Source of the DNA: Leptolyngbya sp. Prado105
GTDB lineage: Bacteria > Cyanobacteriota > Cyanobacteriia > Leptolyngbyales > Leptolyngbyaceae
Direction of reading: 5' to 3'
Assembly: GCA_025454375.1 (NCBI GenBank)
Contig: JALOOO010000006.1
Span: 1-52,296, forward strand
Length of the DNA stretch: 52,296 nucleotides
The translations under genes and the position numbers were made by a program. This document shows, piece after piece, positions 1,371 to 18,504 of the stretch (position 1 is its first letter; each line of letters begins with the position of its first letter). Below the pieces are notes generated by a model that was given only the letters and a program-made list of their open reading frames with translations, did not search any database and had not been told where the DNA came from.

Positions 1371-1589
1371 TCTAGAAACCCCTACTAAGAGCCAATCTTC
1401 ACAGCTGAAACCTACGTTTGATTTTTTCACCTTTCGAGGCAAATTCATCATTTTGCTTACGTAAATTCACGGTAAGGGTTTCTAAATCTCACAATGAGGG
1501 ACTTATGCAAATGAGAAAATAGATTGAATCTGCTGGATAATGGTAGACATTCTGTGAGCCGCTCTGAACTCATCCAGGCAATGACAACA

Positions 1590-2002
1590 ATGGCAAAAGA
1601 TCTGTTTCATTATGTGGTCAAAGAAGCTCTAATTACAGAAGGGTGGGAGATTCCCACGATCCCTTTCCTGTAGATTATGGTGATGTGCAAATGCAGATTG
1701 ACCTCGGTGCTGAACGATTACTTGCTGCCCAACGCGACTCAGAAAAAATTGCTGTAGAAGTGAAAAGCTTTACCAACCCCTTCGCCATCTCTGAGTTTCA
1801 TACTGCTGTCGGTCAATACCTTAACTATCGTCGGGCACTGCGATCGCAAGAGCCTGCAAGAATTTTGTACCTCGCCGTTCCTAACCAAACTTACGAAGAA
1901 TTCTTTCGCCTCAGATTCATTGAGGAAGGGATTAAAGAATACCAACTCTATTTGGTTGTTTATGATGTAGAAAATAGGAGGATTGTGCGATGGATAAGAT
2001 AA
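1590..2002 (+). pseudogene. xisH: xisH, fdxN-element excision controlling factor, broken by a one-base frameshift
   Basis: From ATG 1590 the frame reads MAKDLFHYVVKEALITEGW, a normal XisH start, then hits a stop at 1671-1673. The rest of XisH lies in another frame, which can be opened at GTG 1643 and runs HDPFPVDYGDVQMQIDLGAE and onward to the stop at 2002. Inserting one base after the ATT at 1650-1652 would join the halves as GWEI(T)HDPF, as expected for the family. The second half carries DLGAE...IAVEVKSF, which fits the D...ExK core of the restriction-endonuclease-like fold known for XisH. Known role: XisH with XisI is needed for excision of the Anabaena fdxN element. Here no recombinase (xisF) is visible. 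Either the gene is inactive or the sequence has a one-base error. Confidence 0.8.
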
Positions 2003-2325
2003 ATCACTATCGGCAGATTATTCAAGAAATTCTCATTGCTCATAGCCAAATTCAGCCTGCTTATGGCGAGATTGAAATGGGAGTCTTGTTTGATTTAGAG
2101 CGCGATCGCTATCAAGTTCTCCGAGCAGGCTGGCTGCAAAAACGTCGCGTCTACGGCGCTCTGATTCATATTGATATTAAAGATCAAAAAATTTGGATTC
2201 AATATGATGGCACAGAAGTCGGAGTTGCTAATGAACTGACCGAGCAAGGAATTCCTAAAACAGAGATTGTGCTAGCCTATCACTCCCCTTTCATACGTCA
2301 ATATGATGGGTTTGCTGTGGGTTGA
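1990..2325 (+). CDS. xisI: XisI, fdxN-element excision controlling factor
   Basis: This 111-residue protein has the usual XisI length and motifs: MDKINHYRQIIQ at the start, YGEIEM, FDLERDRYQVL, GW, HIDIKDQKIWIQYDGTE, GVANEL and IVLAYHSPFIRQYDGFAV at the end. It starts inside the end of xisH (13-base overlap), the normal xisHI arrangement, which implies translational coupling. Because xisH is frameshifted, coupling from the full xisH frame would be lost unless the shift is a sequencing error. Its 3' end overlaps the convergent TpsA-like gene by 28 bases. XisI homologues are common in cyanobacteria that have no fdxN element, so a role in excision here is not implied. Confidence 0.9.
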   Translation: MDKINHYRQIIQEILIAHSQIQPAYGEIEMGVLFDLERDRYQVLRAGWLQKRRVYGALIHIDIKDQKIWIQYDGTEVGVANELTEQGIPKTEIVLAYHSPFIRQYDGFAVG

Positions 2326-5300
2326 GTGGGACAAGCCGCGATCGTTGGTGAAGTTGCTTCAGACGGTTGAGCCACCAAAACAACCTTTCCGTCAACAGTC
2401 TTGATCCAGCCTTGAGCTTCGATAATTGGAGATGAACTCGATTGAATTGCGGGATTGGCAGTCGATCGATTAGATGCAAATCCTTCTAAACTCGCAAGCT
2501 GACTCACGACTGAATCTCCAGCAAGAGGATTGATCGGATTCGGTGGTAAACTTCCGGCTCTACTCACCGTGAATTTTCCAACTTTTGCTAGCTCTGAATT
2601 TCGAGGACAAACTTGAGCAATTTGATTACTGGCATCAAGAATGTTATTTGAAAGTTCGACAACTCCTTGTGTGGGTTGCACAGTTGGTTGAACGATCAAC
2701 ACATTCCCCTGAATGCCAAGCTCAGAACTTGCCGTAATTGTATTTTGTCCAGGAATCAGCGTGCTAGATGGTGCAATTCCTAACAAAGCTTGAGTTGTAA
2801 TCGCAATATTGCCCCCTCGTCCTGCTCGTGCATTCGCTTGAATCGTATTATTTTCAGCGGGTTTAGCAACGATCGAACCTGCACTAATGGCAATGTTTCC
2901 CCCATTACCAGAGACTTGCTCTGTCCCAGCACTCGCAGAAATTCTACTATTTCGCCTTAGTACCAATGCGTCAGGCGCAGTAATCGTGACGTTACCGCCA
3001 TCAGTAGCCCCAGAACGAGCGCTAATTCGCGCATCATTTGCTAGCCGAACAAATGGTGCATTGATCGTAATGCTTCCGGCGTTTCCACTTCCGAAGCTTA
3101 CAGCACTAATCGCTGCTTCGTCGAGAATGTCTAAGCGTTGAGCATTGACTAAGACATTGCCACCGTTGCCTGCTCCAACACTTGAAGCAAATAGCCCAGA
3201 CGAGGCGGGAACTCTGTCTTTACCTTGGAACGTAATACTATCGCGCACGTTTAAGGTAATATTGCCACCAGGCTGATCATTTTGTGCGATCGCAAGAATA
3301 CTCCCACCTTCAACAAATCGAACTGAATCTGCCTCAAGCAAAATGTTGCCCGGTTTCCCTAATGCGTCTAGTGCTGAACTTACAGAGATGAAGCTTCCTT
3401 CCCCATTCTCAGCAATTCCATTAAACAAAACACTTCCCCGTGCTTTGATCGTCACATTGCCAGCATTTCCTCGTGCTTCAGTATTTGCAGTAATATTTCC
3501 GGCTGTCATTGTTAGTGAATCGACATCAAGCTGCACGTTGCCTCCTTGTCCAGATCCACGAGTTGTTGAAGTAATCGATCCATCTACAATCGAGAGAGAG
3601 CCTGTTTGAAGTGTGATGTCTCCTGCATCGCCTCCACCTCTAGTTGAGCTATTGAGTCTACTTAATCCAGTCCTAGAGCGTCCACCAATCTCAATTCTAT
3701 CTAGAGCTTTGATAATGATGTTTCCACCTTTGGCGTTAGCAGTGGATTGAGAGGTTAAAGTTGAGATTACAGCCCCATCACGAACTTGCAGACGACCAGT
3801 ACTAATTGATAAATCTCCAGCATTTCCAGTCCCTAGAGTACCAGAACTAATCAGGCTGGTCGTTCTTCCATCCTTGCCTTCACCCGCAATATCAACCATT
3901 TCTGATGCGTTAATGATGAGATTCCCGCCTCGTCCTGAGCTATTCGCTCCAGTGCCCGTCGAAATTATTCCACCATCCCGAATTGTTAGCCGCCGTGTGC
4001 TAAGTGATATCTGTCCAGCATTGCCCACCCCAAACGAATTCGTGGAAAGGGTACTATTGCCAAAAATAAAATCATTATCGCCAATCTGAATGAGTTCTGA
4101 GGTATTGCCTTTGAGTTCAACGCCTTCTGAAGCAGTGATGATAAGATTTCCACTATTGCCCGCTCCATTTGCTGAGGTCAGAATTCCTCCACCATTTAGA
4201 ATCGATAGCAAGCGAGCTTGAATCTCAATATTTCCGCCATCAGCGGCTCCACTACTGACTGAAGTAATTCTTCCACTCATCGTAATGGTGTCTGCTTTGA
4301 TCTTGATATCTCCCGATCGTGTACCGTTGCTAAATGCAAGGATAGAATCTCCTAACCCGTCAAGCACGATCGTGCCTGCTTGAATATCAACATTGCCACT
4401 TCTGCCCGGTAATGCTGCACCGACATTATCTCCGATCGAGCCGAGAATACTGCCGCCTGAGAGGAGCAGGGTATCTTGCACTTGAACAGAAACGTTAGCG
4501 CTTGTCGTAGCTCCATTGCTTAGAAATGTGAGAATCCTAGACTGATTCGTGAGATTGAGATTGCGAGATGCAATATTAATATCTCCTGTCGTTTCTCCAG
4601 ATTGCAAGTTGCGGGAGGAGGCAATCGTGCTGCGATCTAATGTAATCGTGTTAGAGGCTGAAAAATTCACACTTTGCCCAAGACTATTTGTTGCCACTTC
4701 CCCGATCGAGGTTCGTTTCAGGAAGATATTTTCGGCTGCGATGCGAATACTCCCTGTCGCTTCTACAGGTTGATTCTCTAAAGGTCTGCTTTGAGTATTA
4801 CTGTAGTCGAGTGAAGCATTTCCTGTCGCATTCAAAACTAAGTTGCCGACACGACGCTCTGAGCCGCCAATCTCTTTGACTAGAACAGGGAGGAGCGGGC
4901 TGTCCGTGACAGTAATATTTCGCCCAGTTAAAACAATGTCATCTAGCCCACCTGAAACAAGGATAATTCCTTGATTGTTTAGCGTCACATCTGCACGTTG
5001 CACTCCTGTTGGAAAGGAGAGTTGCCAGCGATCGCTGAAATTCGTCAATGCAACTGATCCCGGTGCTGCTAATCCACCAAGTTCGACTCGACCTCCTGGC
5101 ACTGTAATCTGTCCACCCTCAGATGTCACATTACCGCCAACTAGAAGCAGGCTTTTTCCAGTTGGCACAGTTAAGCCAATAGAATCGGTCGATCGAGCGC
5201 GATTCACAATTTCGCCACCTTGAAGCTGACTAAACAACAGCGCAGAAGGTTGAACCGTTAACAAAGGCGGAGCTTGCGGATTCGTTGTACTAAATTCGCC

Positions 5301-5732
5301 TTGAGTCCCAAACCGAACACCATTCGCCGTCGAGCCAATGAATGATCCCTTGACATCTAAGCGTGCATTCTGACCGAAGAGTATGCCATTTGGATTCAAG
5401 AAAAACAGATTTGCACTCCCATCAACTCCTAATGTGCCATTGATATTAGAAGCACTGCTGCCTGTGACGCGAGTGAGAATGTTTTGAATGCCTGTCGGAT
5501 TGGCAAAGTAAACTTGCGAACCATTGCTGATATTAAAATCGCCAAAGCTATGAAAGAGATTTGAACCTCGAATCGCTCCTCCTGTGATTTGTTCTCCGCC
5601 TGAAGTCCGAGGAGCAATCGTCGATCGCTCATTTCCCAAAGTCGTATCGGGCGTAATCTGAGATTGTGCGACTTGAGCAAAGAGTAAAATGCTTGAAGCA
5701 ATCAGGAGATTCAAAAAGTTAAAGCGGAACAT
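2298..5732 (-). CDS. TpsA-like filamentous haemagglutinin-domain exoprotein (distal gene of the CHAT operon)
   Basis: I chose ATG 5732 (1144 residues) because it opens a clean signal peptide (MFRFNFLNLLIASSILLFAQ, ending near VAQSQ) and follows TAGG at good spacing, 8 bases after the upstream stop. A TTG at 5756 would add 8 residues. The secretion domain has QITPDTTLGNERS, GGAIRGSNLFHSF, FANPTGIQNILTRVTG and LFFLNPNGILFGQNA. A long beta-helix of G-x-G-G-N-I/V repeats follows, then the usual cyanobacterial C-terminal block with IAQVCPRN, LPPNPINPL and IIEAQGW. The protein would be secreted across both membranes by a TpsB partner that is not in the window. It is last in the minus-strand unit that starts with the sigma-like gene at 13964, and it ends convergently within xisI. 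Confidence 0.88.
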   Translation of the reverse strand: MFRFNFLNLLIASSILLFAQVAQSQITPDTTLGNERSTIAPRTSGGEQITGGAIRGSNLFHSFGDFNISNGSQVYFANPTGIQNILTRVTGSSASNINGTLGVDGSANLFFLNPNGILFGQNARLDVKGSFIGSTANGVRFGTQGEFSTTNPQAPPLLTVQPSALLFSQLQGGEIVNRARSTDSIGLTVPTGKSLLLVGGNVTSEGGQITVPGGRVELGGLAAPGSVALTNFSDRWQLSFPTGVQRADVTLNNQGIILVSGGLDDIVLTGRNITVTDSPLLPVLVKEIGGSERRVGNLVLNATGNASLDYSNTQSRPLENQPVEATGSIRIAAENIFLKRTSIGEVATNSLGQSVNFSASNTITLDRSTIASSRNLQSGETTGDINIASRNLNLTNQSRILTFLSNGATTSANVSVQVQDTLLLSGGSILGSIGDNVGAALPGRSGNVDIQAGTIVLDGLGDSILAFSNGTRSGDIKIKADTITMSGRITSVSSGAADGGNIEIQARLLSILNGGGILTSANGAGNSGNLIITASEGVELKGNTSELIQIGDNDFIFGNSTLSTNSFGVGNAGQISLSTRRLTIRDGGIISTGTGANSSGRGGNLIINASEMVDIAGEGKDGRTTSLISSGTLGTGNAGDLSISTGRLQVRDGAVISTLTSQSTANAKGGNIIIKALDRIEIGGRSRTGLSRLNSSTRGGGDAGDITLQTGSLSIVDGSITSTTRGSGQGGNVQLDVDSLTMTAGNITANTEARGNAGNVTIKARGSVLFNGIAENGEGSFISVSSALDALGKPGNILLEADSVRFVEGGSILAIAQNDQPGGNITLNVRDSITFQGKDRVPASSGLFASSVGAGNGGNVLVNAQRLDILDEAAISAVSFGSGNAGSITINAPFVRLANDARISARSGATDGGNVTITAPDALVLRRNSRISASAGTEQVSGNGGNIAISAGSIVAKPAENNTIQANARAGRGGNIAITTQALLGIAPSSTLIPGQNTITASSELGIQGNVLIVQPTVQPTQGVVELSNNILDASNQIAQVCPRNSELAKVGKFTVSRAGSLPPNPINPLAGDSVVSQLASLEGFASNRSTANPAIQSSSSPIIEAQGWIKTVDGKVVLVAQPSEATSPTIAACPTQPTANPSY

Positions 5733-5740
5733 AGCAAAAC

Positions 5741-8194
5741 CTAAATTTTGGGACAATGAGCAGGGTTCAACATTGAAGCATCGGCATTGCTGACCAGGAT
5801 GATTTCGTTCCGCTCATTTCTGATCCAACCTTGAGCTTCAATAATGTTTCGAGCAAGTTGAGTCTTGGGTAAAGTACTTGTTGTTAGACTATCAAGACTA
5901 GCAAGTGGAATTGGCACTGTTCCGGATAGCGAACCAAGCGGATTTGGTGGCGCGCTACCTCGCCCACTGACTACAAATCGACTTATCGATCGACCAATCA
6001 ACCCTCTGCGACAAACTTGAGCAATCTGACTACTCGCATCAATCAAATCAGCAGGTAATTCTAGCAAGCCCTGTGCAGGCTGAACATCGGGCTGTGTAAT
6101 CGAGATATCCCCTTGTACACCCAATTCTGAACTTGCTGTAATGTCACTTCGAGTCGTTGGAGCAGCAGCAGGTTCGATTCCAAATCGTCCTTGAGTGCTG
6201 ATCGTGACATTTCCGCCTCGACCTTGAAAAGCATTCGCTCGAATATCACTATTTTCACTGGGGACAGCAACTATCGCATTCGCATTGATGCGAATATTGC
6301 CACCTTGCGCGCGATTATTTGCACTTGCATTAATTTGGCTCCCTCGCCGCAAGACTAAAGTATCCAAACCGCGCAAGCTAATCTCGGCTCCAGTCCCTTG
6401 ATTTAGACCTGTTACAGCCGTCAAACGACTCTGATCAACAACAACTTGTCTTGCCGTAATCTCAAGTGTTCCAGCATTTCCAGTTGGGCTACTCACACTC
6501 AAACTCGATCGATTTCTTAAGAAGACAGAATCTGCATTCACAAGCAGATCACCTGCCGCACCAACTGGGTTAGCACCTCGCGCGATCGCTTGAGCCGAAA
6601 CTTCAGCCCCATCTCGAATACTCAAGCGATTCGTCGAAATTCTGAGGGTTCCAGCATCTCCAGTACTTTCAGTCTGTGCAGTTAGTAAACTGGGAACGAC
6701 AAAAGGGAGATTCTGAGTCGTGCCAGCGACTTCTACACTTTCTGAAGCATTTACTGTTAAAGTGCCTCCTCGTCCTGTCGCACCCTGAAATACTCTGGAA
6801 GACACTAACCCTCCATCCCGTAAGCTAAATCGACGTGCATTAATCGTTAAATCTCCCGCATTCCCTTGAGAAAACGTTTCAGTTCTGAGGATACTGAAGT
6901 AAGCATCAGTATTAAACTCGGTTCCAATCACTTCAACAGTGTCAGCATTGACGGTTAAGTTGCCTGCATTTCCGCTAGAGCCTAAAGCCGAGTTCGCAAT
7001 CACTCCACCTCGTCGAATGCTCAATCGATTGGTATTGATCGTCAAATCTCCGGTTCGCCCCGCTCCTTGAGTCGAGCCACCAAAGCCAGGTTGTCCATCT
7101 GGAACTGTCCCAAAAACTTCAACGGAATCTGTAGCATTGATCGTGATATTAGCACCCTGACCTGTGCCTAGGGTTAATGCTCGAAATGATCCCCCATCTC
7201 GAACAATCAACGATCGTGCATTCAAGGTCAAATTTCCTGCATTAATTGCACCAGAATTGATCGCATCGATCGCTCGATCGCCAACAATTTCGATTCTTTC
7301 TTGAGCATTCAGCGTAATGCTTCCAGATTGAGTTTGACTCGTCACGAAAATCTGTGCCCAGTCTGAACCAGAATTCTGTGCATCTAGTAAGAGATTGCGT
7401 CCAGTCAGAATGATCTGCCCCCCGTCTCCACCCTCAATGCGCGATCGAGCCTGCATGACGATATCCGCTTGAGCGACATTTTGTGGAAAGCTCAGTCGAA
7501 AATCAGAACTCAGTCCAATTTCACCCACGCCTGATAATCCACCGACTTCAAGCCGTCCTCCTGATGCAACAACTCCGCCATTTTCAAATAAGACATTCCC
7601 CCCTACTAGGAGCAGCGATTGACCTTGATCCAATTGAAGTCCCTGAAAAGGGGGTGTCCGAACTGTGATAGCACCCCGAGGAAACTGCGTGTAAAGTAAA
7701 GCCGAAGGAGCAACATTGAGCAACGCTGGCGCTTGTGGATCAGTCGTCCCAAAAACACCACGATCGCCAAATCGAATTCCATTTGCTGTTGAACTTACAA
7801 ATGAGCCTCGTAAATCTAAGCCTGCCCCTTGATTGAAAAGTACTCCATTCGGGTTGAGTAGAAATAAATTAGCAGCCCCCTCTACTCCTAAAACGCCCGA
7901 AATCGTTGAAGCAGTGCCTCCTGTAACGCGCGTAAAAATATTTTGAATCGCAGTTGGATTCGCAAAATAAAGCCGCTGCCCTGTATTGATATTAAACTCG
8001 CTAAAGCTATGAAACAAATTTGTGCCGCGAATCGCTCCGCCTTGGATGAGAGACGGGATCGCGCCACTACTTGGAACAAACTGCGATCGCTCACTTCCCA
8101 AGGTCGTATCCGGGACAATCTGAGCAAGAGCAGATCCGGGTGACAGAAGCATCATCAGGACAGAGAAAAGCCAGGTGAATCGCATCATCTTCAA
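5741..8194 (-). CDS. TpsA-like filamentous haemagglutinin-domain exoprotein (first of tandem pair)
   Basis: An 817-residue protein with a signal peptide (MKMMRFTWLFSVLMMLL, cleavage after GSALA), then QIVPDTTLGSERSQ, GGAIRGTNLFHSFSEF, FANPTAIQNIFTRVTG and LFLLNPNGVLFNQGA. This is the TPS secretion domain, with conserved NPNG and a following beta-helix of GNAGNLTI-type repeats. The C-terminal block IAQVCRRG, APPNPLG and IIEAQGW matches the neighbouring TpsA. It is a tandem paralogue of the gene at 2298-5732 with an 8-base gap and lies 9 bases after the DUF928-like gene, so co-transcription is likely. The 1152-codon neighbour is longer mainly in the beta-helix. The ligand or surface role is unknown. 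Confidence 0.88.
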   Translation of the reverse strand: MKMMRFTWLFSVLMMLLSPGSALAQIVPDTTLGSERSQFVPSSGAIPSLIQGGAIRGTNLFHSFSEFNINTGQRLYFANPTAIQNIFTRVTGGTASTISGVLGVEGAANLFLLNPNGVLFNQGAGLDLRGSFVSSTANGIRFGDRGVFGTTDPQAPALLNVAPSALLYTQFPRGAITVRTPPFQGLQLDQGQSLLLVGGNVLFENGGVVASGGRLEVGGLSGVGEIGLSSDFRLSFPQNVAQADIVMQARSRIEGGDGGQIILTGRNLLLDAQNSGSDWAQIFVTSQTQSGSITLNAQERIEIVGDRAIDAINSGAINAGNLTLNARSLIVRDGGSFRALTLGTGQGANITINATDSVEVFGTVPDGQPGFGGSTQGAGRTGDLTINTNRLSIRRGGVIANSALGSSGNAGNLTVNADTVEVIGTEFNTDAYFSILRTETFSQGNAGDLTINARRFSLRDGGLVSSRVFQGATGRGGTLTVNASESVEVAGTTQNLPFVVPSLLTAQTESTGDAGTLRISTNRLSIRDGAEVSAQAIARGANPVGAAGDLLVNADSVFLRNRSSLSVSSPTGNAGTLEITARQVVVDQSRLTAVTGLNQGTGAEISLRGLDTLVLRRGSQINASANNRAQGGNIRINANAIVAVPSENSDIRANAFQGRGGNVTISTQGRFGIEPAAAPTTRSDITASSELGVQGDISITQPDVQPAQGLLELPADLIDASSQIAQVCRRGLIGRSISRFVVSGRGSAPPNPLGSLSGTVPIPLASLDSLTTSTLPKTQLARNIIEAQGWIRNERNEIILVSNADASMLNPAHCPKI

Positions 8195-8203
8195 GTGTAT
8201 CGA

Positions 8204-8851
8204 TTAGCTTTGTGTACAGAGATTCGTGAGAAGTTTTTTGTAGTACTTGGTGAACTCTGGCGAGGGATTTTTTACTTCACTCAGCACCTGAACTGCATCT
8301 GACCATAATCGACGATCTTGATCCAGTAAATAATCTGCTTTAGCAGACGCGATCGCTTCATCTGAACCTGCCTTTGTCTTTTCAAGTTCTTTCAATTTAG
8401 CAAGATGTTGTTCTCGTTCAGTCTGAGAAATGACGGCTACAGAGTCCCACGGGTCGTCCGTTGGAGCTAATACTGGATCTGCTGATGGTTTGCTAATGAG
8501 TTGCCATCTATAAACCTTATTGGGCTGTAAGGGTTGTTGAGCGCCATAGGCAATTTGGCGCATGTTCGGGGTGAGTTGAGTTTCCCAGACAATGTCATTC
8601 GTGTCCTCATCTTGAACAATCAGCCCGACCGCTTCTCCCTGCCAGGTAAATAAGGGTCGATCGCTAATTACTCTAGAGTTCTTTTCAAGCAAGCCAGGAG
8701 TCATGGGACACACACCGCTCCGAGTCCCAAGCGTTACTCTCGGTCTGCGTCCAATCCATGACCAAAATTGGGCTGAAACAGGTGCAATCGAAACGATCGC
8801 ACTGGCTACAACGAGTCCAGATACTACTAAAAGAGTTGAAAACTTACGCAT
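8204..8851 (-). CDS. DUF928-like secreted protein
   Basis: A 215-residue protein with a signal peptide (MRKFSTLLVVSGLVVASAIV, cleavage near VSAQ). It then has GTRSGVCPM, a segment DRPLFTWQGEAVGLIVQDED, PLQPNKVYRWQL and the C-terminal LWSDAVQVLSEVK. The order Cys-Pro, xRPxF, QDE, Pro-Leu-x-x-x-K-x-Y-x-W and W-x-DA-x-x-x-L matches my recollection of DUF928, a cyanobacterial family often found beside CHAT-CHASE2 genes. No catalytic motif is visible. Its start overlaps the end of the CHAT-CHASE2 gene by 8 bases, so it is probably translationally coupled to it. Given a periplasmic location, it could be a partner of the CHASE2 sensor domain or of the exoproteins (inference). Confidence 0.65.
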   Translation of the reverse strand: MRKFSTLLVVSGLVVASAIVSIAPVSAQFWSWIGRRPRVTLGTRSGVCPMTPGLLEKNSRVISDRPLFTWQGEAVGLIVQDEDTNDIVWETQLTPNMRQIAYGAQQPLQPNKVYRWQLISKPSADPVLAPTDDPWDSVAVISQTEREQHLAKLKELEKTKAGSDEAIASAKADYLLDQDRRLWSDAVQVLSEVKNPSPEFTKYYKKLLTNLCTQS

Positions 8852-11252
8852 AATTTCTCCTTCTCATTGCCGATAAACTGTACGCGAGAAACACCGAAGA
8901 GGGTAAAAACCAAGGCAGAAGCACCAAAGCTGAGATATAAACTTGCAGCGCTAGCAAGGTATATATCCCGGTTATTCCGACTAATGCAGCCGAAACTTGT
9001 AGACGAGTCATCTGATTCCATCGCTGCGATCGCCGAGCGACCAAAAGCGCGATCGTTTTGCCAAGCACAACGGCTAGACCGATCATCCATAGATCAGGAA
9101 TCGGAAGAACTAAATGCCGATGCAGCCAGTGATGGGTCATGTACGCCAGCGATTCCCCACCTGTTAACCACTGTTGACCTGTTTTGTACTTGAGCGCAGT
9201 GGGAGAGAGAAAGCGATCGGGTGTATCTCCCATTCCTAAGCGTTCATCACTTCCGGGTGCGACGAGTACAATTTGCTTAGATAGTAAGGGAAACTGATAT
9301 TTTCCAGAGTCATCTAAGAGTTGCCAAGCGGGAATGAGTTGGTAAGCTGTGCTAGGCGGAAGTGAGAAGTCAACAATCGGTTCAAGTCCAAGTGGCGCTT
9401 GCCAATTGAGCAGGGTAGGGACTCTCCCATTTTGAGGAGCGTGTTGTTTTAAGGCTTCGAGCAGTTGGGTGCGCAGATCGAGAACGCGATCGCGTCCCGG
9501 TTGAGGCATTCTACTAACTTCTTCTTGTCCTGCTTGGACGAGAGAAAGTAAATAAGCGATCGGGCAAGTTTCCTGACATTGCTGCTGGGGGACTTCGACA
9601 AAGTGGGGATGTCCTTGAATATTGCCAAGCATTGTCCAGTTTGGGCTTGTAATTCCCATATGCTCATTGACCCCGATTTCGCTGCTATTTTTCTGAGTCG
9701 AGGCGAATGTAATCCAAGCGCCACGATTGAGCGTTTGTCGAATCGATTCTCCCAGGATTTGATCGCCTTGAGGTACATTCTTTTGCGGAGAGTCGAGTAA
9801 TACATCAAATCCGATTACCCGTGCATTGTTTTTCTGGAGTCGATTTAGAATGGATGCTAAATAAGTGCGATCGAGGGGTCTAAATTGATTGACTCCAGCC
9901 GCATTGAAAGAATCTGTATCCATCTGCACGAGTGCGACGGGGGGAGCTTCGTCGATCGGGATTTGAGCCGTGATCGTTCGATATACAGATTGCGTGTAGA
10001 GTCGTCCATCTCGAAGCAAGTCTTGAACCGGAAGCAATGCACTCAGAGCGATGCTTGCCGCTAATACAATTGCCTCGGTTCGAGTGGGTAAAAGCTGGCG
10101 AAATCGACCTTTCCAATGGACAGGTGCAAGTTGAAATAGCTTTGCTCCAGGGTGACAGAACAGAGAAGGGACGAGGGACGCTGAAGGATAAGTATGGCTC
10201 TTTTCCATTCGGAGAAATTGCCGTGCGGCTAGGACTGAATCGTAGACATCCAAGCTTTTTCCTAAGCCTTGTAAGAAATGAACTAAGAAATCTTGTGCGA
10301 CTCGATTGTGGATCGGTTCGCGCATGACGACGACTTGCCCAAAGCCGAGATCGATGAGCGAATCGGCAATGCTCAACCCACTACAAGAGTTAAAGATCGC
10401 AACTTGTAAGCCGCGTTTTTTAGCTGCCATGAGTTGGGGTTTGATTTCGTGAATTGAAATCGAGACACCCGGTGCAATTCCGAGTTCTCCACCTGTGAGA
10501 GCAGTTTCGTTACTATGACCCGCGAAAAAGAGAACATCCCATCCTTGCTCATCTGCGATCGCGCTTGTAATGTCTTGAATGACTTGAGCCGCCGTTTTAT
10601 CCGGTTGCCAACCGACGAATTTGACTTCTGCGAGCTTTTTGAGCGATCGGACTGCTTCTCGATCGGTTTTGAAGTCGAGTCCGGTATCATCGCCTAAAAT
10701 TGCTAGAATTCGCGCTCGTCGTGATCTGAGCGATTCGGATTGAGTCGGGGCACTGATATTGAGTGGGGCACGAATGATTTGAATCGCGCCTGTAGAAGCA
10801 AATTCTGTGCCGAGTTCCCAAGCTTCCCAGGGAAAGCGATCGAGCGCAATGGGCGCACAGGTGAGAAAGACTCGAATCGGTTCTGTGCTTTCTGGATTCG
10901 TTTTAATCAGTTTTTGGCTAGCAGACGCGATCGTCGATCGAATGTCGTAGAGTTCTGCACTGCGGAGCCATCGGTGAAACTCGTACATGAGCTTTGTTTC
11001 GGCTCGGATTAGCTCAGCGTGCCAATCGACGTGAATCGTAGCAATGCCGCCGCCAACGGTTCGCCCTCGGAGTTGGTCGGATTGATAGAAGTTGAGATAG
11101 GTCTGCCGCCAGTCTTGATAGAGTTGAGTCAGGGCTTGAGGATAGTTGACTTGTACAGTTAGGCTTTGCCCCTGTCCCCAAGACAATTCAAACAGACAGA
11201 TCTGCTCAACTTTCTGAACTTTAAGATGAAAAGTGTAGATGTTTGGTTTCAT
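8844..11252 (-). CDS. CHAT-CHASE2 membrane protein (caspase-like domain plus extracytoplasmic sensor)
   Basis: From ATG 11252 the protein has 802 residues. A GTG at 11306 would add 18 residues that fit the family poorly. The N-terminal half is a CHAT (caspase/HetF-associated) domain with VLFFAGHSNE and IFNSCSGL, placing the catalytic pair at His246 and Cys290. A membrane segment (TEAIVLAASIALSALL) precedes a CHASE2 domain that includes PPVALVQMDTDSF, RPLDRTYLASIL and ARVIGFDVLLD. Three more hydrophobic segments close the protein, ending RRRNYA. Expected topology is CHAT in the cytoplasm and CHASE2 in the periplasm, so an external cue could control a cytoplasmic protease-like activity. Both catalytic residues are intact. 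The substrate is unknown. It lies in the operon with a sigma-like regulator and exoproteins. Confidence 0.88.
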   Translation of the reverse strand: MKPNIYTFHLKVQKVEQICLFELSWGQGQSLTVQVNYPQALTQLYQDWRQTYLNFYQSDQLRGRTVGGGIATIHVDWHAELIRAETKLMYEFHRWLRSAELYDIRSTIASASQKLIKTNPESTEPIRVFLTCAPIALDRFPWEAWELGTEFASTGAIQIIRAPLNISAPTQSESLRSRRARILAILGDDTGLDFKTDREAVRSLKKLAEVKFVGWQPDKTAAQVIQDITSAIADEQGWDVLFFAGHSNETALTGGELGIAPGVSISIHEIKPQLMAAKKRGLQVAIFNSCSGLSIADSLIDLGFGQVVVMREPIHNRVAQDFLVHFLQGLGKSLDVYDSVLAARQFLRMEKSHTYPSASLVPSLFCHPGAKLFQLAPVHWKGRFRQLLPTRTEAIVLAASIALSALLPVQDLLRDGRLYTQSVYRTITAQIPIDEAPPVALVQMDTDSFNAAGVNQFRPLDRTYLASILNRLQKNNARVIGFDVLLDSPQKNVPQGDQILGESIRQTLNRGAWITFASTQKNSSEIGVNEHMGITSPNWTMLGNIQGHPHFVEVPQQQCQETCPIAYLLSLVQAGQEEVSRMPQPGRDRVLDLRTQLLEALKQHAPQNGRVPTLLNWQAPLGLEPIVDFSLPPSTAYQLIPAWQLLDDSGKYQFPLLSKQIVLVAPGSDERLGMGDTPDRFLSPTALKYKTGQQWLTGGESLAYMTHHWLHRHLVLPIPDLWMIGLAVVLGKTIALLVARRSQRWNQMTRLQVSAALVGITGIYTLLALQVYISALVLLPWFLPSSVFLAYSLSAMRRRNYA

Positions 11253-11344
11253 CGGAGTAAGCTGAATGCTATAGAGAGTAGCTCTGAATGATTTGAACTC
11301 ATGCACAGAGTTTGAAGGATAGAGAGTGGATCAAAATCGTTTCT

Positions 11345-12601
11345 TTAAGTGGATTCATCAATCTCAAAGCCAAAAGGGGGAATTTCAAACACATCGGTCT
11401 GGTGTGCAGTAATCGTGACTTGAAATTTCTCATTCCAATTGCCAATAACTTGTGCATATAGGACACTTTGATCGTTGTCTTCTAATGTTTGCTCAAACAA
11501 GAGGGCTGTCTCATCTCGAATTGCTAATTTTAAGTTTGCAGGCATTCTTGTGTCCGGTTCCGCACCCAGTGCAATCAGGAGCATCCATTCAGATGATTGT
11601 TCTGATACGATCCAGGTGACAGCATAGAGTCGAAAGCTTGCTTGTGCAGATTGTAGCGTTCGATAAGCTCCTCTAGCTGTCGTAGGAATGTGAACGCCTT
11701 GCAATTCTAAGGTCGATCGAATACTGTCGAAGTCTTCTCTAAGCGATCGCAAAGCTGATAATCCGGGGAGTAGCATCCAGCCGAGTCCTTGCGCGATCGT
11801 GTCAATCTGATTTGTCAACCACAGTCTTGCATTGATCGAAGGCGGCTCAGGTCTAGAATAAAGTGCATTGACTAAAGTTGGATCACTCAGGAGGGTTAAG
11901 CCTTCTTCAGCCGTTAGTACGTCCCAAGGGGCTTGATTTTGTAGATCTAAGGTTGCTAACTTTTCTCGGAGTGCAAGGGTCGATCGGATCGGCTCTAAAA
12001 TCGGAAGTCGAATTGCAGTTGGCTCTAAACATCGAAAATTTAGTAACAATGTATTTGCGTCAGGACTAAACCAATCTAGAGGCAGAGAATAGATCCAGTC
12101 TGAACTTGCTTCGAGCCGCTTAATATTTTCTTGAATTTGGTTGTAGGTTAGAAATCCTGAAATTGCGGCTTGATCTGCTTCGTCTAGGACTTGAACTAAC
12201 ACATAAAAGTGAGCGACAAAATCGGGATGCTCAATCGCTGCGATCGAGACATCGATCTGATCCTCGATCGAACTTCCAACTGAAATTACGCACACCTTAA
12301 ATGCGCCAACTTGAATATTACAAGCTTCAGGCATCAAGTTCGGATAGCCTGTCTGCCAGATAGAAGCTTGCTCAAATCGAGTGCTGAGATCGGGCGCTCG
12401 CTCACTCAGCCATTGCTGAAATCCAAGTGTGCCGAGTGCAGAAAGATAAGTCTGCCAGCGTAGTTCGCACGTGCGAATTGTTTCGCTGAGTGTTGCGGCT
12501 TGTTGTACTTGCTCTGGGGACAGTTCGACTTGGGCGGGGTTGAGTGCGTTCCAGTCGGGGAGATCAAAATCATCTAAAAGTGAACTAGGTAGGTTAGACA
12601 T
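11345..12601 (-). CDS. DUF1822 family protein
   Basis: The start at ATG 12601 is chosen because a strong GAGGA lies about 10 bases upstream. It gives 418 residues (MSNLPSSLLDDFDLPDW) and overlaps the end of the sigma-like gene by 8 bases. Segments such as RWQTYLSALGTLGFQQWL, CNIQVGAFKVCVISVGSS, HFYVLVQVLDEADQAAISGF and LPLDWFSPDANTLLLNFRCL match my recollection of DUF1822, a cyanobacterial family of unknown function. There is no signal peptide or membrane segment. Members are commonly encoded with a sigma-like gene and a CHAT or CHASE2 gene, as here. A role as a cytoplasmic partner of the sigma-like protein is an inference from the overlap only. Confidence 0.78.
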   Translation of the reverse strand: MSNLPSSLLDDFDLPDWNALNPAQVELSPEQVQQAATLSETIRTCELRWQTYLSALGTLGFQQWLSERAPDLSTRFEQASIWQTGYPNLMPEACNIQVGAFKVCVISVGSSIEDQIDVSIAAIEHPDFVAHFYVLVQVLDEADQAAISGFLTYNQIQENIKRLEASSDWIYSLPLDWFSPDANTLLLNFRCLEPTAIRLPILEPIRSTLALREKLATLDLQNQAPWDVLTAEEGLTLLSDPTLVNALYSRPEPPSINARLWLTNQIDTIAQGLGWMLLPGLSALRSLREDFDSIRSTLELQGVHIPTTARGAYRTLQSAQASFRLYAVTWIVSEQSSEWMLLIALGAEPDTRMPANLKLAIRDETALLFEQTLEDNDQSVLYAQVIGNWNEKFQVTITAHQTDVFEIPPFGFEIDEST

Positions 12602-13964
12602 AGCTGGACTTCCTCGAAGCGAGATAATGACAGAGACGGCGGGCGAGTAAACTGCGAAAAGGTTGATTCCGAATGGGAGACTGCGCCTCGCTTTCAGCTT
12701 CTTCAATCACGCTCTTTAGTTGCTCATCTAAAATTAAATCTACTTTTTGTTCTAGGTGCTGTAGGCGATCGACTGCTGCATAGAGTTTTGCTTTATCGAT
12801 GACAAGACTACGTAAATCAGATAGCGATCGCTGACGAATATCGGCTCTTAAATCTGTTAGTTTTAGTAGACGTGTGACTTCATATTGCTTTTTTAATCCG
12901 ACTTGGGGCGCAATCTCGCTCATCGATTGCCCTTGACAGTGAAAGAGATGCAGTGCAGTTAAGAAAGCATCTTCAGGCTTACGTTTGCGCTGAAGCGTTT
13001 CTAAAACCGTTGGAATCACTTGTGCGATCGCGCGATCGAGACAGGTTAAAAATTGAGCTTGGTAAAATTTGAGAAAATCTAAGGCTTCATCTTCTTCAGA
13101 AGGAGATTGAATCTGATCGACAATCGGTCGCATCTCTGGCTGATCTAGCGAAACTGCTTCAACTGCACCTCCTCTTGCTAGAATCCGAGCGCGACGAAGC
13201 TGAGTTGCGCTCGCGTTTAGCTGATTTAAGATGGCTTCAGGGTTGACTCTTTTTTGAGTGCGATCGTATAGCTCGTCAGCGATGCGGTTGAGTTGTGCTG
13301 TCGTTGGGGGTTGACAGAGTTGTTTTGATCCTGAGAGCTTCTGTTTTAGCCGATCTTCTCGATAAACTGCATGAAAGCTCTGGAGCAGTTCTGAGCTGTA
13401 CTTGACCTCGGTTTCTGAAAGCTGATAGCCTTCGCTGAGGATTTGCTGAAGTTGCTTGGGTCTTGTGTCATTTAAGATCGCCCAATTGCTAGCAATATAA
13501 ACCCCATGCTCTAGTAAAAATCGCTTGAGTTCAGAATGCTGCTTGACTTGTAGGCTTACCCAGGTTCCCAGTGCAGCTTTGGCGGGGTCAAACGACTGTA
13601 AGATAATCTTCCACAGCGATCGAGTGTTTGGTCTGTGAGATCGTCCATCGTCGTCTAGGACAAACGGCAATAGGTCGGAGTAAGTAAATCCATTGCGATT
13701 GCCAAATTTGAGACTGAGATTTCGGCAAGCCTGATCGATTTGATACGAAATGAAACATCTCAAACAGAGTTCTGCGACAGTTTCGCCAGATTGCGATCGC
13801 TGCCAGAGTTCTCGTTGAATGGTCACATCGGGCACTTCTGCCTGTTCCATCCAATCCGGGAACTGTTCATAGAGGTAGTTTTTTGCACTGGTCATGATTT
13901 CAACCCGTCGTCTGCCCGCTGAATCTAACTTCACGAGTTGCCAGTAGTTCGATCCGAAACTCAC
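12594..13964 (-). CDS. Sigma-70-like regulator of the CHAT/DUF1822 cluster
   Basis: A 456-residue protein starting at GTG 13964, with AGGG 8 bases upstream. A later ATG at 13895 is less well supported by its upstream sequence. The C-terminal third has a helix-turn-helix-like stretch, FHCQGQSMSEIAPQVGLKK followed by QYEVTRLLKLTDLRADI, reminiscent of sigma region 4. The central part YDRTQKRVNPEAILNQLNAS is unusual, and I cannot point to a canonical region 2. Cyanobacterial relatives in this genomic context are usually called sigma-70 family proteins, but I rate that as probable rather than certain. As the first gene of the six-gene unit, it could control the unit itself. Confidence 0.55.
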   Translation of the reverse strand: MSFGSNYWQLVKLDSAGRRRVEIMTSAKNYLYEQFPDWMEQAEVPDVTIQRELWQRSQSGETVAELCLRCFISYQIDQACRNLSLKFGNRNGFTYSDLLPFVLDDDGRSHRPNTRSLWKIILQSFDPAKAALGTWVSLQVKQHSELKRFLLEHGVYIASNWAILNDTRPKQLQQILSEGYQLSETEVKYSSELLQSFHAVYREDRLKQKLSGSKQLCQPPTTAQLNRIADELYDRTQKRVNPEAILNQLNASATQLRRARILARGGAVEAVSLDQPEMRPIVDQIQSPSEEDEALDFLKFYQAQFLTCLDRAIAQVIPTVLETLQRKRKPEDAFLTALHLFHCQGQSMSEIAPQVGLKKQYEVTRLLKLTDLRADIRQRSLSDLRSLVIDKAKLYAAVDRLQHLEQKVDLILDEQLKSVIEEAESEAQSPIRNQPFRSLLARRLCHYLASRKSSYV

Positions 13965-14000
13965 AGTTTTTACCCTACTTCAAGCTGACCGTCTTTTATT

Positions 14001-14022
14001 CTTTCATTTCCTTTAATGAAAG
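14001..14022. promoter_or_regulatory. Inverted repeat upstream of the sigma-like operon
   Basis: A perfect 8-base inverted repeat, CTTTCATT-TCCTTT-AATGAAAG, sits 37 bases upstream of the GTG start of the sigma-like gene in the A/T-rich 200-base gap before the subtilisin gene. Its place fits an operator or a 5' leader hairpin. No factor can be assigned. Confidence 0.35.
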
Positions 14023-14164
14023 TCACGATCTTTTTCCGTATTATTACGTAACAACTGTGAGTTGACTCGTTCTACGGCTATTTGGGCTATATTTCTGACG
14101 GCGATCGACTGATGCAATTTTGCCCAAACTTGATGAATTGAGTTGAATCAGTGCGTTTGTACGA

Positions 14165-15361
14165 CTAACTAATGGTGGTTTGGATTAGAATCTGGCGGAG
14201 TTGAGCAGGACTTAAATCAGGATTTGCACTCAGCATCAATGCAGCAACTCCTGCGACATGAGGAGCAGCCATTGAAGTTCCTCCAAAAGCCTCATATTCA
14301 TCATTGGGAATCGTCGAATAGACATTAACACCAGGTGCAACGATATATCGCATTGCTGGGTCATTTCCAGCGAGATTAGAAGCCCAATCTCCAGTATCAG
14401 CCATGTAGCCATACTCGTCGATCGCGCCGACTGCAACGCCCCATTGCTTAGCGTAATAGCCTGGGTAGCCCGGTTCAGATTGCCCATTGTTTCCTGCCGA
14501 CATGACAACCATTGCACCTCGTTCTGTTGCATATTGGATAGCCTGTGCAATTTCAGGAGCAGGAGACGATCCGCCTAAACTTAGATTAATCACATTTGCG
14601 CCATTGTTTGCTGCATAGACGATTCCCTCTGCGATGTCTAAATCGGCACCGCCCGTTTCTCCCAGGACTCGAATCGGCATGATCTCTGCATCGAACGCGA
14701 CTCCAATAATTCCTGCGCCATTTCTCTCAGCCGCGATCGTGCCTGCAACATGAGTTCCATGCCCATCAAAATCCATCGGGTTATTGTCCCCGCTGACAAA
14801 ATCCCAACCAATTAGATCATCGACATAGCCATTGTAATCGTCATCAATACCATTGCCTAAAATTTCATCTTGATTAATCCAAATGTTGTCATTGAGATCG
14901 CTGTGGGTAAAGTCAACGCCACTATCAATAACTGCGACGACGACATTTCTGCCTGTATAACCAGCATTCCACACTTCGGGAGCGCTTACTGCATCTAGTC
15001 CCCAAAGATTAAGATCATGATACTGATCAGCAACGTCTGCAAAACGGGATCTCCCAATTGAAGCAGCGACAGCAGCAGCAGCATCGACTAAGCCATAACC
15101 GTAGACTGGACTAAATGAATGTGATGCTGGAAAGATTTGAGAAGTAACAGACTCTGAGCTTGAGCTTGTGAAGCCTTCACAAGCTTGAGATGCGAGGGTG
15201 ATATCACCTGCATCTAGCTCGGTTTGCTCAGAATGGCTAGAGGGACGGAAGCGAGAAGACGTGAATCCGCAGTCGAGTTGAGATTTGCTAGCTTGAGAAG
15301 CTGAGTCAGTAAATAAGCTAGAAACAATGTCTAAAGCGTTGCTTGCTTGAGAGAAGAACAT
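14165..15361 (-). CDS. Subtilisin-like serine protease (S8)
   Basis: A 398-residue protein from ATG 15361 with GAGG eight bases upstream. The S8 catalytic residues are all present: Asp146 (VAVIDSGVD), His201 (DGHGTHVAGT), oxyanion Asn291 (MSAGNNG) and Ser363 (FGGTSMAAPHVAG). Calcium-loop-like acidic stretches (NDNIWINQDEILGNGIDDDY) lie between Asp and His. The first 80 residues are Ser/Gln-rich without an obvious signal peptide, and GYGLVDAAAAVAASIG just before the catalytic domain resembles the propeptide junction of cyanobacterial subtilisins. It ends soon after the Ser motif, with no C-terminal add-on domain. It follows the MinD-like gene by 70 bases, and both sit beside the divergent GG-leader peptide locus. 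Processing of those peptides is possible but unproven, because the C39 transporter can already cut the leader. Confidence 0.92.
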   Translation of the reverse strand: MFFSQASNALDIVSSLFTDSASQASKSQLDCGFTSSRFRPSSHSEQTELDAGDITLASQACEGFTSSSSESVTSQIFPASHSFSPVYGYGLVDAAAAVAASIGRSRFADVADQYHDLNLWGLDAVSAPEVWNAGYTGRNVVVAVIDSGVDFTHSDLNDNIWINQDEILGNGIDDDYNGYVDDLIGWDFVSGDNNPMDFDGHGTHVAGTIAAERNGAGIIGVAFDAEIMPIRVLGETGGADLDIAEGIVYAANNGANVINLSLGGSSPAPEIAQAIQYATERGAMVVMSAGNNGQSEPGYPGYYAKQWGVAVGAIDEYGYMADTGDWASNLAGNDPAMRYIVAPGVNVYSTIPNDEYEAFGGTSMAAPHVAGVAALMLSANPDLSPAQLRQILIQTTIS

Positions 15362-15431
15362 AGAGCGACCTCTGAATTGATCATTGAAGCGACGCTAATT
15401 CGTAGTTATCGTAGAAACTCACTTATGCAAA

Positions 15432-16264: not shown

Positions 16265-17335
16265 TCAATTGTTCTTCGGATCTGTCCACTGGTCGCGAAT
16301 CTGCTTTGCACTCTGCTGTAATTTCTGAAAGTAGTCTGTTTCTTCGATTTCTGAAACCTGTTGAATTCGCTGATTGTGGTCGATTTCAACTCTCAATTGC
16401 CGGAGTTGCTCTGCTAATTTTTGCTCTCGATCGCGAACTTCTCGCACCATGCGCTGAAAGACTTTACCGAGTTGTCCAAGTTCGTCCCCTCGCTGTGCAA
16501 TTTTGTTCAATCCTTTGCGCTCCAAGATCTCGACCTCTGCTGCATCGACGTTTTCTAAACAGAGTTGTTCTGCTAGATGTGCCATTGGCTTTAGAGGTCG
16601 GATCACACGCCGCTTTAACAAATAGTTCACGAGCAAGAGAACTAATGCAAAAATGACGGTAAAGATATTGATAAAGATAAACAGCGCTTGACGAGCATTA
16701 CTAAAGACTTCATGAGCAGGTAAATAGACAATGCGAGTCCCAATAATCTCATTGAGATTCCAGCCGTATCCATTTTCGCTGCCATAGCGATCGCGATGAC
16801 TCTTGGGAGCTTGCTCAGGAATCCCATGACACTTTAAGCAACTTTCTTGATGAATCGCCAGAGGTTGAGCGCTATAGAAAAGCTGATTCCGAAAGCCAGA
16901 GAGTGTTTTCAATGTGCGATCGTTTTGGAATCGTTCGATTAGCTTTGCTTCAAATAGATCAGACTTATCGGCTAGATTTGTTGGATTGAGTGCAGCCGTT
17001 TTGTAGAGATAGTCTTTGTACTTCCAATTTTCTTGTAATCGGCTAAAGACTTGATGAGAAGCAACACTCGGAATGCTCTCAGGAATGAGGCGGGTTTGAG
17101 AATCTAGCTCAGTTCGTAGAAGAGGAGTGACCTGCTCATTGGTGTAGCTGCTGACCGAATTCATTAAGTGCATGACGAGTTGAGCGCGATCGCTAATTTC
17201 GGTTTCTGCTCGATGCTCTAATGCTTTAGAAAGCGCAAAGCCTCCTAATCCAATTCCAGCAATAAAGATCAAAGACAACAATATTGTGAATTGCGAAGCG
17301 AGCTTTAATCGACGCAGATTTTCTCTAATTTTCAT
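16265..17335 (-). CDS. Membrane sensor with Tll0287-like (DUF3365) haem-type domain and HAMP
   Basis: A 356-residue protein. A first membrane segment (residues 16-36) is followed by an extracytoplasmic domain with ESCLKCHG (Cys166, Cys169, His170), a c-type haem attachment motif, and with FYSAQPLAI and LNEIIGTRIVY, as in the DUF3365/Tll0287-like family. A second membrane segment lies around residues 213-240, then a HAMP domain (RRVIRPLKPMAHLAEQL) and a coiled coil ending near DYFQKLQQSAKQ. It has no kinase, cyclase or methyl-acceptor domain, so output is probably through protein contact, plausibly with the MinD-like ATPase encoded 11 bases downstream. It is divergent from the GG-leader peptide operon with about 200 bases between them. 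Redox or ligand sensing is inferred from the haem motif. Confidence 0.82.
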   Translation of the reverse strand: MKIRENLRRLKLASQFTILLSLIFIAGIGLGGFALSKALEHRAETEISDRAQLVMHLMNSVSSYTNEQVTPLLRTELDSQTRLIPESIPSVASHQVFSRLQENWKYKDYLYKTAALNPTNLADKSDLFEAKLIERFQNDRTLKTLSGFRNQLFYSAQPLAIHQESCLKCHGIPEQAPKSHRDRYGSENGYGWNLNEIIGTRIVYLPAHEVFSNARQALFIFINIFTVIFALVLLLVNYLLKRRVIRPLKPMAHLAEQLCLENVDAAEVEILERKGLNKIAQRGDELGQLGKVFQRMVREVRDREQKLAEQLRQLRVEIDHNQRIQQVSEIEETDYFQKLQQSAKQIRDQWTDPKNN

Positions 17336-17367
17336 CGCAGTATTCTCCTACTCTGAATAGCTTCTAG

Positions 17368-17488
17368 CTCTGAGCGAGTCAGAGTTATGCAGGATCTCAT
17401 CCAAAAGTTGGAGATCCTTTGATGGAGAGTAAAACAGCGATGTTCAAACGTTTTTACGATGTGGAACTCGGTTACTAGCTCCTATAGT
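17368..17488. promoter_or_regulatory. Divergent control region with two palindromes and a candidate -10
   Basis: This region lies between the HAMP-sensor gene (minus) and the first GG-leader peptide gene (plus). It holds CTCTGA-GCGAG-TCAGAG (17368-17384) and AGGATCTC-N12-GAGATCCT (17391-17418), both perfect inverted repeats. TATAGT at 17483-17488 is a plausible -10 for the peptide operon, 52 bases before its ATG, though no good -35 is evident. The second palindrome could also form a hairpin in a leader transcript. No binding factor is known. Confidence 0.4.
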
Positions 17489-17540
17489 GTGTACATGTTC
17501 AAGAGAACAGCAACCCACTCAAAACAAAGGAGAAACAACC

Positions 17541-17780
17541 ATGTTGAACGAAATCAAAGCAATCGAACTGTCTGACAACGAATTGGATGTGGTTAGCGGT
17601 GGCGCGATCACGATCGGTGATGTTCAAGGCTATGCTCAAACCGCAGTCAATGACTTCTTCCAAAAGAACATGACCGTAGCACAGCAGACCTTCGCAGGTC
17701 CTAATGGCAGCGGCACAGGTTCGGTGGTGAATCTTGGAATCACGGGTGGGTTTTCTGGGCAAAACATTGTCGTCGGTTAG
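17541..17780 (+). CDS. GG-leader (CTB-type) bacteriocin-like peptide 1
   Basis: A 79-residue precursor starting at ATG 17541 after AAAGGAG. The leader IELSDNELDVVSGG ends in a double Gly, the cleavage signal of C39 peptidase transporters. The mature part starts AITIGDVQGYAQTAVNDFF and contains QKNMTVAQQTFAGPNGSGT, which is shared with the next two genes. It has no Cys, so lanthionine or disulfide formation is excluded. The end is NIVVG. This matches what I know as the CTB family of cyanobacterial bacteriocin-like peptides. It is the first gene of a set of three with 40-80-base gaps, upstream of a dedicated NHLP-type exporter. Its activity is unknown: it may be antibacterial, a signal or a surface peptide. 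Confidence 0.85.
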   Translation: MLNEIKAIELSDNELDVVSGGAITIGDVQGYAQTAVNDFFQKNMTVAQQTFAGPNGSGTGSVVNLGITGGFSGQNIVVG

Positions 17781-17856
17781 TTCATTTTGGGAGGTGAACA
17801 TTCACTTCATCTCCCAAGGTCAATTTTCAATCTATCTAAACTAAGGAGAAACAATC

Positions 17857-18093
17857 ATGTCTGAATTTAACGCGATCGAGCTTTCCGAAACCGAATTAGA
17901 TGCAGTTGCAGGCGGCGCAATTACGATTAGCGATGTTCAAGGCTATGGGCAAACTGCATTCAACGACTTCTTCCAAAAGAACATGACCGTAGCACAGCAA
18001 ACCTTCGCAGGTCCTGGAGGTAGCTTCACTTCATCTGTGACGAACCTGAGCGAAACCAAGACCTCAGCAGGTCAAACCATCGTTGTCGGCTAG
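17857..18093 (+). CDS. GG-leader (CTB-type) bacteriocin-like peptide 2
   Basis: A 78-residue precursor, ATG preceded by AAGGAG. The leader is IELSETELDAVAGG, and the mature part begins AITISDVQGYGQTAFNDFF. The block FFQKNMTVAQQTFAGP is identical in peptide 1. The tails differ: Ser/Thr-rich here (SFTSSVTNLSETKTSAGQ) but again ending IVVG. This pattern of a conserved leader and core block with a variable C-terminal third points to tandem duplication with divergence of the exposed part. It has no Cys. It lies between peptides 1 and 3 in the same direction and is presumably on one transcript with them and exported by the C39 transporter at 21391-23538. Confidence 0.85.
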   Translation: MSEFNAIELSETELDAVAGGAITISDVQGYGQTAFNDFFQKNMTVAQQTFAGPGGSFTSSVTNLSETKTSAGQTIVVG

Positions 18094-18132
18094 TTTGAAA
18101 CATCACCCTCTATATTTACAGGAGAAATCATC

Positions 18133-18378
18133 ATGGAACTCAAATCGAACCTCATTGTTGAATTGTCTGAAACCGAATTGGACAATGTTGCAGGCGGATT
18201 GTCGGTCACTATCGGCGATGTGGGCGGATTTTCTCAGACTTCTGGCAATGGATTTACCCAGAAAGGAATGACGATCGCTCAACAAACCTTTGCCGGACCA
18301 AACGGCAGCGGAACCGCTTCGGCTTTCGACTTCAAATTCATTGACACCTTTGCAGCACAGAGCCTTGCTGCAAGCTAA
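18133..18378 (+). CDS. GG-leader (CTB-type) bacteriocin-like peptide 3
   Basis: An 81-residue precursor with ACAGGAG before the ATG. The leader is VELSETELDNVAGG. The mature part is SVTIGDVGGFSQTSGNGFT then QKGMTIAQQTFAGPNGSGT, clearly related to peptides 1 and 2 but the most diverged of the three. Its C-terminus (FDFKFIDTFAAQSLAAS) lacks the IVVG ending. It has no Cys. A strong intrinsic terminator follows 24 bases after the stop, so the three paralogues form a transcription unit that can be made in excess over the downstream export genes. Confidence 0.83.
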   Translation: MELKSNLIVELSETELDNVAGGLSVTIGDVGGFSQTSGNGFTQKGMTIAQQTFAGPNGSGTASAFDFKFIDTFAAQSLAAS

Positions 18379-18402
18379 ATCTGATTCCGCTCTGTAATCC
18401 TC

Positions 18403-18437: not shown

Positions 18438-18504
18438 CTCACAAGTTGCATCACTTCTTAGCCTACAGAACTAATGTTATCGCAGCAATCATGGAGAAAG
18501 CACA

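Follow-up and report, generated by a model that had tools for sequence, protein, structure and literature searches.

In membrane anti-sigma systems of the RseA-RpoE type, regulated proteolysis in response to a signal from the envelope frees a sigma factor, which activates its own operon together with envelope genes. In type III-E CRISPR, the CHAT protease Craspase/Csx29 cuts the sigma-bound Csx30 of the Csx30-RpoE pair (PMC9729208, PMC10028731), and in the HetF-PatU3-HetZ system of Anabaena a cyanobacterial protease frees a regulator through cleavage of its antagonist (reviewed in PMC12288457). Closest to the locus described here are the EACC2-caspase systems, in which a caspase-type protein with a constant N-domain and a variable C-terminus, CHASE2 among the variants, has a sigma factor and DUF1822 as neighbours. 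This grouping of caspase, CHASE2, sigma and DUF1822 genes was predicted by Kaur et al. (2021, eLife, PMC8195603), who proposed a transcriptional output for it, with the targets left unnamed. Here we describe a cassette of this kind in the cyanobacterium Leptolyngbya sp. Prado105, contained in six minus-strand genes at 2298-13964 of contig JALOOO010000006.1, of which positions 1 to 52,296 (the whole stretch analysed, called the window below) were studied. A first-pass annotation made from the sequence of the window knew of no described function for the combination, a statement that the 2021 prediction supersedes.

The locus shares with the EACC2 systems the C-terminal CHASE2 sensor and the adjoining sigma factor and DUF1822 genes. 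Ahead of its CHAT domain there is a conserved N-terminal region that may correspond to the constant N-terminal alpha+beta domain of the EACC2-caspases. Unlike the systems as described, it has DUF928 as a regular fourth gene, a common promoter-like motif and a set of candidate target genes; moreover, its DUF1822 protein is not predicted to be a TPR protein, and its sigma factor does not belong to the extracytoplasmic function (ECF) group by the spacing definition. Our literature search found no paper linking DUF928 to the caspase/sigma/DUF1822 grouping and nothing relevant on the motif. What is new relative to Kaur et al. is the fourth gene, a correction of the DUF1822 fold, the homology of the sigma factor, the promoter-like motif and a probable regulon. 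Judged from sequence, it is fairly probable that an autoregulated alternative-sigma cassette governs the expression of a set of exported proteases and exoproteins, the membrane-bound CHAT protease being its probable switch.

The sigma-like protein and its conserved cassette

The first gene of the unit (12594..13964, minus strand) encodes a protein of 456 amino acids that has no Pfam match of its own, and direct sequence searches of Pfam, NCBIfam and the PDB gave no significant sigma match for it, which is why its homology had to be established by way of a paralogue. This paralogue, on contig C187 of the same genome, has 409 residues, lies directly before a DUF1822 gene and is recognised by Pfam, with Sigma70_r4 and r4_2 above the cut-off and r2 weakly. 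Comparison of the two families with hhalign gave a probability of 99.6% and an E value of 1.8e-23 over 402 columns, and the controls gave nothing; homology to regions 2 and 4, the mark of the sigma-70 superfamily, was thus found by profile-profile comparison and not by a direct Pfam match. The AlphaFold model of the window protein, built from 65 sequences, has a predicted local distance difference test score (pLDDT) of 91 and a single disordered linker at residues 275-287, and in a Foldseek search of the PDB its five best matches were all sigma factors (best E 2.7e-3). On these comparisons, which bear out the sigma-like nature suggested by the first-pass annotation, gene 1 is truly related to sigma-70, though very divergent. 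An assignment to the ECF sigma factors (group 4), which are defined by fewer than 50 residues between regions 2 and 4 (PMC11119718), was rejected because of the length of the protein and the layout of its Pfam-recognised relative on C187, where r2 extends to residue 160 and r4 begins at 317. DUF1822 adjoins the sigma gene in 24 of 27 loci of the C187 family, and we therefore regard sigma plus DUF1822 as the old core of the system. A further sigma-like paralogue, on contig C119, has no detectable relationship to the window protein. A second copy of the sigma-like gene, on contig C358 (L152, 6275-12341), stands before SLBB/Poly_export and Wzz-like genes, with neither CHAT nor DUF1822 there.

The second gene (11345..12601, minus strand; Pfam E 1.3e-44) overlaps the first by 8 bases at 12594-12601 and encodes a DUF1822 protein of 418 amino acids, a putative partner of the sigma factor. 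Its predicted structure (pLDDT 90) combines an alpha/beta domain with a C-terminal beta-sandwich, and the best PDB match of this model is an ApaG-like domain; the predicted fold disagrees with the TPR label given by Kaur et al. (PMC8195603) to what is the same Pfam family. The genome holds four DUF1822 matches beyond that of the cassette. An apparent fusion of sigma and DUF1822 in one open reading frame (ORF) of locus L066 comes from a low-coverage assembly and was not used.

After a gap of 92 bases follows the gene for the CHAT-CHASE2 membrane protein (8844..11252, minus strand; a GTG at 11306 is also a possible start), in which the conserved N-domain precedes a CHAT protease domain (Pfam 3.2e-7) and CHASE2 (1.3e-16), with transmembrane windows at about 413-431, 739-757 and 783-801 in the numbering from the GTG start. 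The catalytic dyad His246/Cys290, noted as intact at the outset, is indeed so, and all 96 of the 96 proteins compared, two paralogues included, have it unchanged. DUF928, an exported protein with a signal peptide (8204..8851, minus strand), overlaps CHAT-CHASE2 by 8 bases at 8844-8851. Its Pfam score (E 1.6e-4) is below the cut-off here; the identification is upheld by its fixed position after CHAT and by a paralogous cassette on contig C96 of the same genome (DUF1822, CHAT-CHASE2, DUF928), where the DUF928 in the same position is clear (2e-40). Two exoprotein genes with the N-terminal two-partner secretion (TPS) domain of TpsA and the NCBIfam signature adhes_NPXG complete the unit, TPS 1 at 5741..8194 (Pfam TPS 1.1e-46) after a gap of 9 bases and TPS 2 at 2298..5732 (8.1e-54) after a further 8, both on the minus strand. 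Genes, strand, overlaps and gaps are therefore as first annotated, and Pfam confirms the DUF1822, CHAT, CHASE2 and both TPS domains.

The conservation of this arrangement was surveyed in the closest genomes and in 80 cyanobacterial loci. A cassette of four genes, sigma-like, DUF1822, N-domain-CHAT-CHASE2 and DUF928, was found across cyanobacteria. In 57 of 68 loci CHAT is followed immediately by DUF928, and in 26 of these the two genes overlap by exactly 8 bases; in 52 of 74 loci CHAT is immediately preceded by DUF1822. Such recurrence shows that the arrangement is not due to chance. A sigma-like gene is found within 3.5 kb of CHAT in 39 of 62. When protein distances were compared among the four genes over 48 loci, r lay between 0.70 and 0.86, a correlation to which species relatedness alone contributes. 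That the four genes form one inherited unit is thus supported by sequence. The conserved co-occurrence expected in the first-pass annotation holds for this cassette and fails for TpsA: TPS genes are downstream in 8 of 56 loci, mostly in relatives of Calothrix, for which reason they were rejected as a constant part. The pair of TPS genes was thus added in a particular clade, and the commoner genes behind DUF928 encode exported TPR-CHAT proteins, C14 caspases, subtilases or trypsins. TPS proteins need a transporter of the TpsB kind, and none adjoins the cassette; the four TpsB genes of the genome, which has about 13 TPS genes, are all on other contigs.

A shared promoter-like motif

The regions upstream of the sigma genes are mostly unalignable except for TGCATAAG-N11-CAGAAATA and a block close to the start that resembles a ribosome-binding site. 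The motif is present without mismatch in 3 of 71 sigma-gene regions and with at most two mismatches in 18 of 71, compared with 0 of 1420 shuffled regions. A matrix trained on 20 sigma-gene sites only was then applied to the surveyed loci. Of its sites with a score of at least 15, 79 precede genes in the correct orientation, 4 fall within genes and 10 are at other intergenic positions; the reversed matrix found 2. Since the matrix derives from sigma-gene upstream regions, it is tested independently only by sites at other genes; 54 of the 79 precede non-sigma genes and had no part in its training. The loci are mutually related and these counts are not independent events, a limit that does not touch the single-genome control counts below.

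The genes behind the sites encode sigma (25), TPR-CHAT (21), subtilases (8), TPS proteins (5), DUF1822 (4), CHAT (2), one trypsin and others, and among subtilases next to cassettes 8 of 12 have the motif. Starts resembling signal peptides are enriched behind it (30/47 versus 163/586, p 1e-6). TPS genes downstream of cassettes carry their own copies in other genomes (L057, L058 twice, L059). When the TGCAT/TGAAT variant at the sigma site was compared with that at the other sites of the same locus, the pairs were 21 C/C, 9 A/A and 1 A/T. Residues that separate TGAAT from TGCAT loci, including 361 and 371 near the recognition helix, were not used as evidence, as only five loci are of one kind. 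Scans for consensus sigma-70 promoters and terminators showed no excess over shuffles.

The window has six sites at a score of at least 15, where 0.075 are expected, and all are on the minus strand. The best (14085..14116, score 29.1, exact core match) is upstream of the sigma gene, and another (11274..11305, score 16.3) lies in the 92-base gap upstream of CHAT-CHASE2. A third TPS exoprotein gene, cut by the end of the contig (3..1451, minus strand), is preceded by a site at 1478..1509 (score 20.9), an S8 subtilase gene (14165..15361, minus strand; Pfam 4.6e-60) by one at 15398..15429 (score 15.7), and the gene for a sensor-like Tll0287-like/HAMP membrane protein (16265..17335, minus strand; Pfam 2e-37) by one at 17360..17391 (score 22.7); the latter two are likely members of the regulon. 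The sixth site, at 8957 inside the CHAT gene, may be due to chance. The motif copy in the gap, the third TPS gene and the subtilase with their motifs had all been overlooked, and with one copy ahead of CHAT and another ahead of the third TPS gene, the unit is not the simple single transcript first envisaged.

Whole genomes give a similar picture. The pattern has 15 matches in the Prado105 genome against 2 for a control pattern, and 25 against 3 in Calothrix brevissima NIES-22, where the strong sites are mostly before genes for exported TPR proteins, TPR-CHAT or trypsin. In Leptolyngbya sp. SIOISBB (8.3 Mb; cassette variant TGAATAAG) there are 14 matches and none for the control. All but one of the 14 fall in a 57-kb stretch about the cassette (L325-L328, 6938-6995 kb), an island of genes for exported TPR-CHAT proteins, caspases, subtilases and trypsins; nearly all of these sites are close upstream of TPR-CHAT, C14 caspase, subtilase, TPR or similar genes. 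No strong copy was found at the paralogous loci of Prado105 on C187, C96, C119 and C358.

Two side observations concern other conserved blocks. A different motif variant, GGCATATCCTC...CAGAAATACAT, stands at genes behind DUF928 in L081, L083, L079, L105 and L093, where it may serve a different sigma paralogue. Some 60 bases ahead of the start codon of the sigma gene, in the window (13990-14030) and its relatives, there is a conserved block AAGGAGGTGAAA(A)AATT, which resembles a full Shine-Dalgarno sequence and may mark the start of a very short leader ORF.

A candidate proteolytic switch and its alternatives

That the motif is a promoter is suggested by its bipartite form and its closeness to start codons; that the cassette sigma factor reads it is suggested by the clustering of sites around the cassette, by the agreement of variants within a locus and by the sigma gene being the one most often preceded. 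The sigma factor would then read TGCATAAG-N11-CAGAAATA before its own gene and before TPS, TPR-CHAT, subtilase and CHAT genes, and, because its own gene is included, the system would amplify itself. This suggests that the cassette may switch on exported proteases and surface proteins, and the control of exoproteins proposed in the first-pass annotation is, as an inference, well supported by the common motif. The steps before transcription are more tentative: we suggest that an envelope or outside cue is sensed by CHASE2, perhaps with the help of exported DUF928, that it activates CHAT on the cytoplasmic side, and that CHAT cleaves either DUF1822, as a partner holding the sigma factor, or the flexible linker of the sigma factor at 275-287, which would release sigma activity.

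Craspase offers the nearest parallel, in that a CHAT protease is coupled both to a sigma factor and to one more protein. In Craspase this additional protein, Csx30, associates with the sigma factor and is cut by the protease, whereas here the likeness is one of arrangement, with DUF1822 as a putative counterpart; the signal input here would be membrane CHASE2, and the targets would be exported proteins. No CRISPR effector or Csx30 was found among the recurrent neighbours of the cassette, nor did PADLOC match. Compared with RseA-RpoE type systems, a sensor-fused caspase-family protease would replace DegS/RseP, and no transmembrane anti-sigma factor is seen at this locus. The likeness drawn to HetF-PatU3-HetZ is one of principle, a protease freeing a regulator.

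Several observations weigh against the proposed sigma circuit. The Foldseek matches to sigma factors fall short of E 0.001 and would not suffice alone, and in predicted-structure comparison DUF1822 does not resemble any known anti-sigma factor. CHAT-DUF928 also occurs without a sigma gene nearby, and about 30 of the 71 sigma genes have no motif that the matrix recognises, from which it follows that other cassettes may use other codes. Strict motif counts do not separate genomes with a sigma gene from those without among 42 genomes of the family, a comparison in which the strict pattern at two mismatches finds mostly chance matches. This equality of counts would fit the idea that the motif is the site of another regulator or sigma factor, with the cassette sigma merely one target. 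A candidate is at hand in a HisKA_3 kinase/LuxR regulator pair, whose kinase gene has the motif both in Prado105 (contig C267) and in NIES-22. The Prado105 operon ends in TpsB, a point that counts for the exoprotein regulon. However, the crowding of 13 of 14 SIOISBB sites round the sigma gene in 57 kb of 8.3 Mb, a motif variant that follows the cassette locus, and blocks that lie close to start codons with a spacing usable by a sigma factor all speak for the cassette sigma, and we consider control by another regulator somewhat unlikely.

Kaur et al. (PMC8195603) saw this family as one of cell death or conflict, in which CHAT would activate itself upon invasion or damage, the sigma arm would add transcription and the exported proteases would act as toxic effectors. 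TPR-CHAT proteins and C14 caspases among the putative effectors are in keeping with that prediction; yet most of the likely targets are exported, with TPS exoproteins and a TpsB among them, which fits a surface or envelope role better, and the cassette proteins have no match among the PADLOC defence models, so that we think a conflict module unlikely here. The genes could also be plain operon neighbours without any signalling, the TPS genes having been inserted downstream by chance and CHAT having unrelated substrates. The presence of downstream TPS genes in no more than 8 of 56 loci, most of which belong to a single clade, and the roughly 13 TPS genes of the genome would agree with this, but downstream TPS genes in other genomes and the third TPS gene of the window have motif copies of their own, and a mere neighbourhood appears very improbable. 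The reading of an autoregulated sigma cassette with a protease switch is thus the one we prefer. Its widest form, a chromosomal non-CRISPR cascade of proteolysis, transcription and proteolysis that leads from a membrane caspase-family protease through a divergent sigma factor to an island encoding exoproteins and exported proteases of the caspase family, under a promoter code that can be defined, is put forward tentatively, as a possibility that we stop short of calling probable.

Neighbouring genes and biological meaning

Three further features of the window lie outside the cassette. Between TPS 2 and the third TPS gene there is a xisH-xisI pair (1643-2325, plus strand), of the family controlling excision of the fdxN element, which overlaps the 3' end of TPS 2 by 28 bases. 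A peptide exporter cluster at 17487-26477 (plus strand) comprises a gene for a small peptide with a VSGG double-glycine leader and genes for cNMP-binding, HlyD, C39 peptidase-ABC and ABC proteins; it has a weak motif copy at 18447-18473, and a strong copy precedes the equivalent cluster of NIES-22. A transposase-like ORF at 26655-27944 (minus strand) is probably of the TnpB/IS605 type.

Filamentous cyanobacteria have many CHAT and caspase-like proteins. The motif provides a handle on their control and purpose, as it names likely targets, predicts the sigma factor that would drive them and makes the link between protease and sigma factor testable with reporters. If the proposed circuit is true, CHAT-to-sigma signalling, known from CRISPR systems, would be a general circuit by which bacteria respond at their surface.

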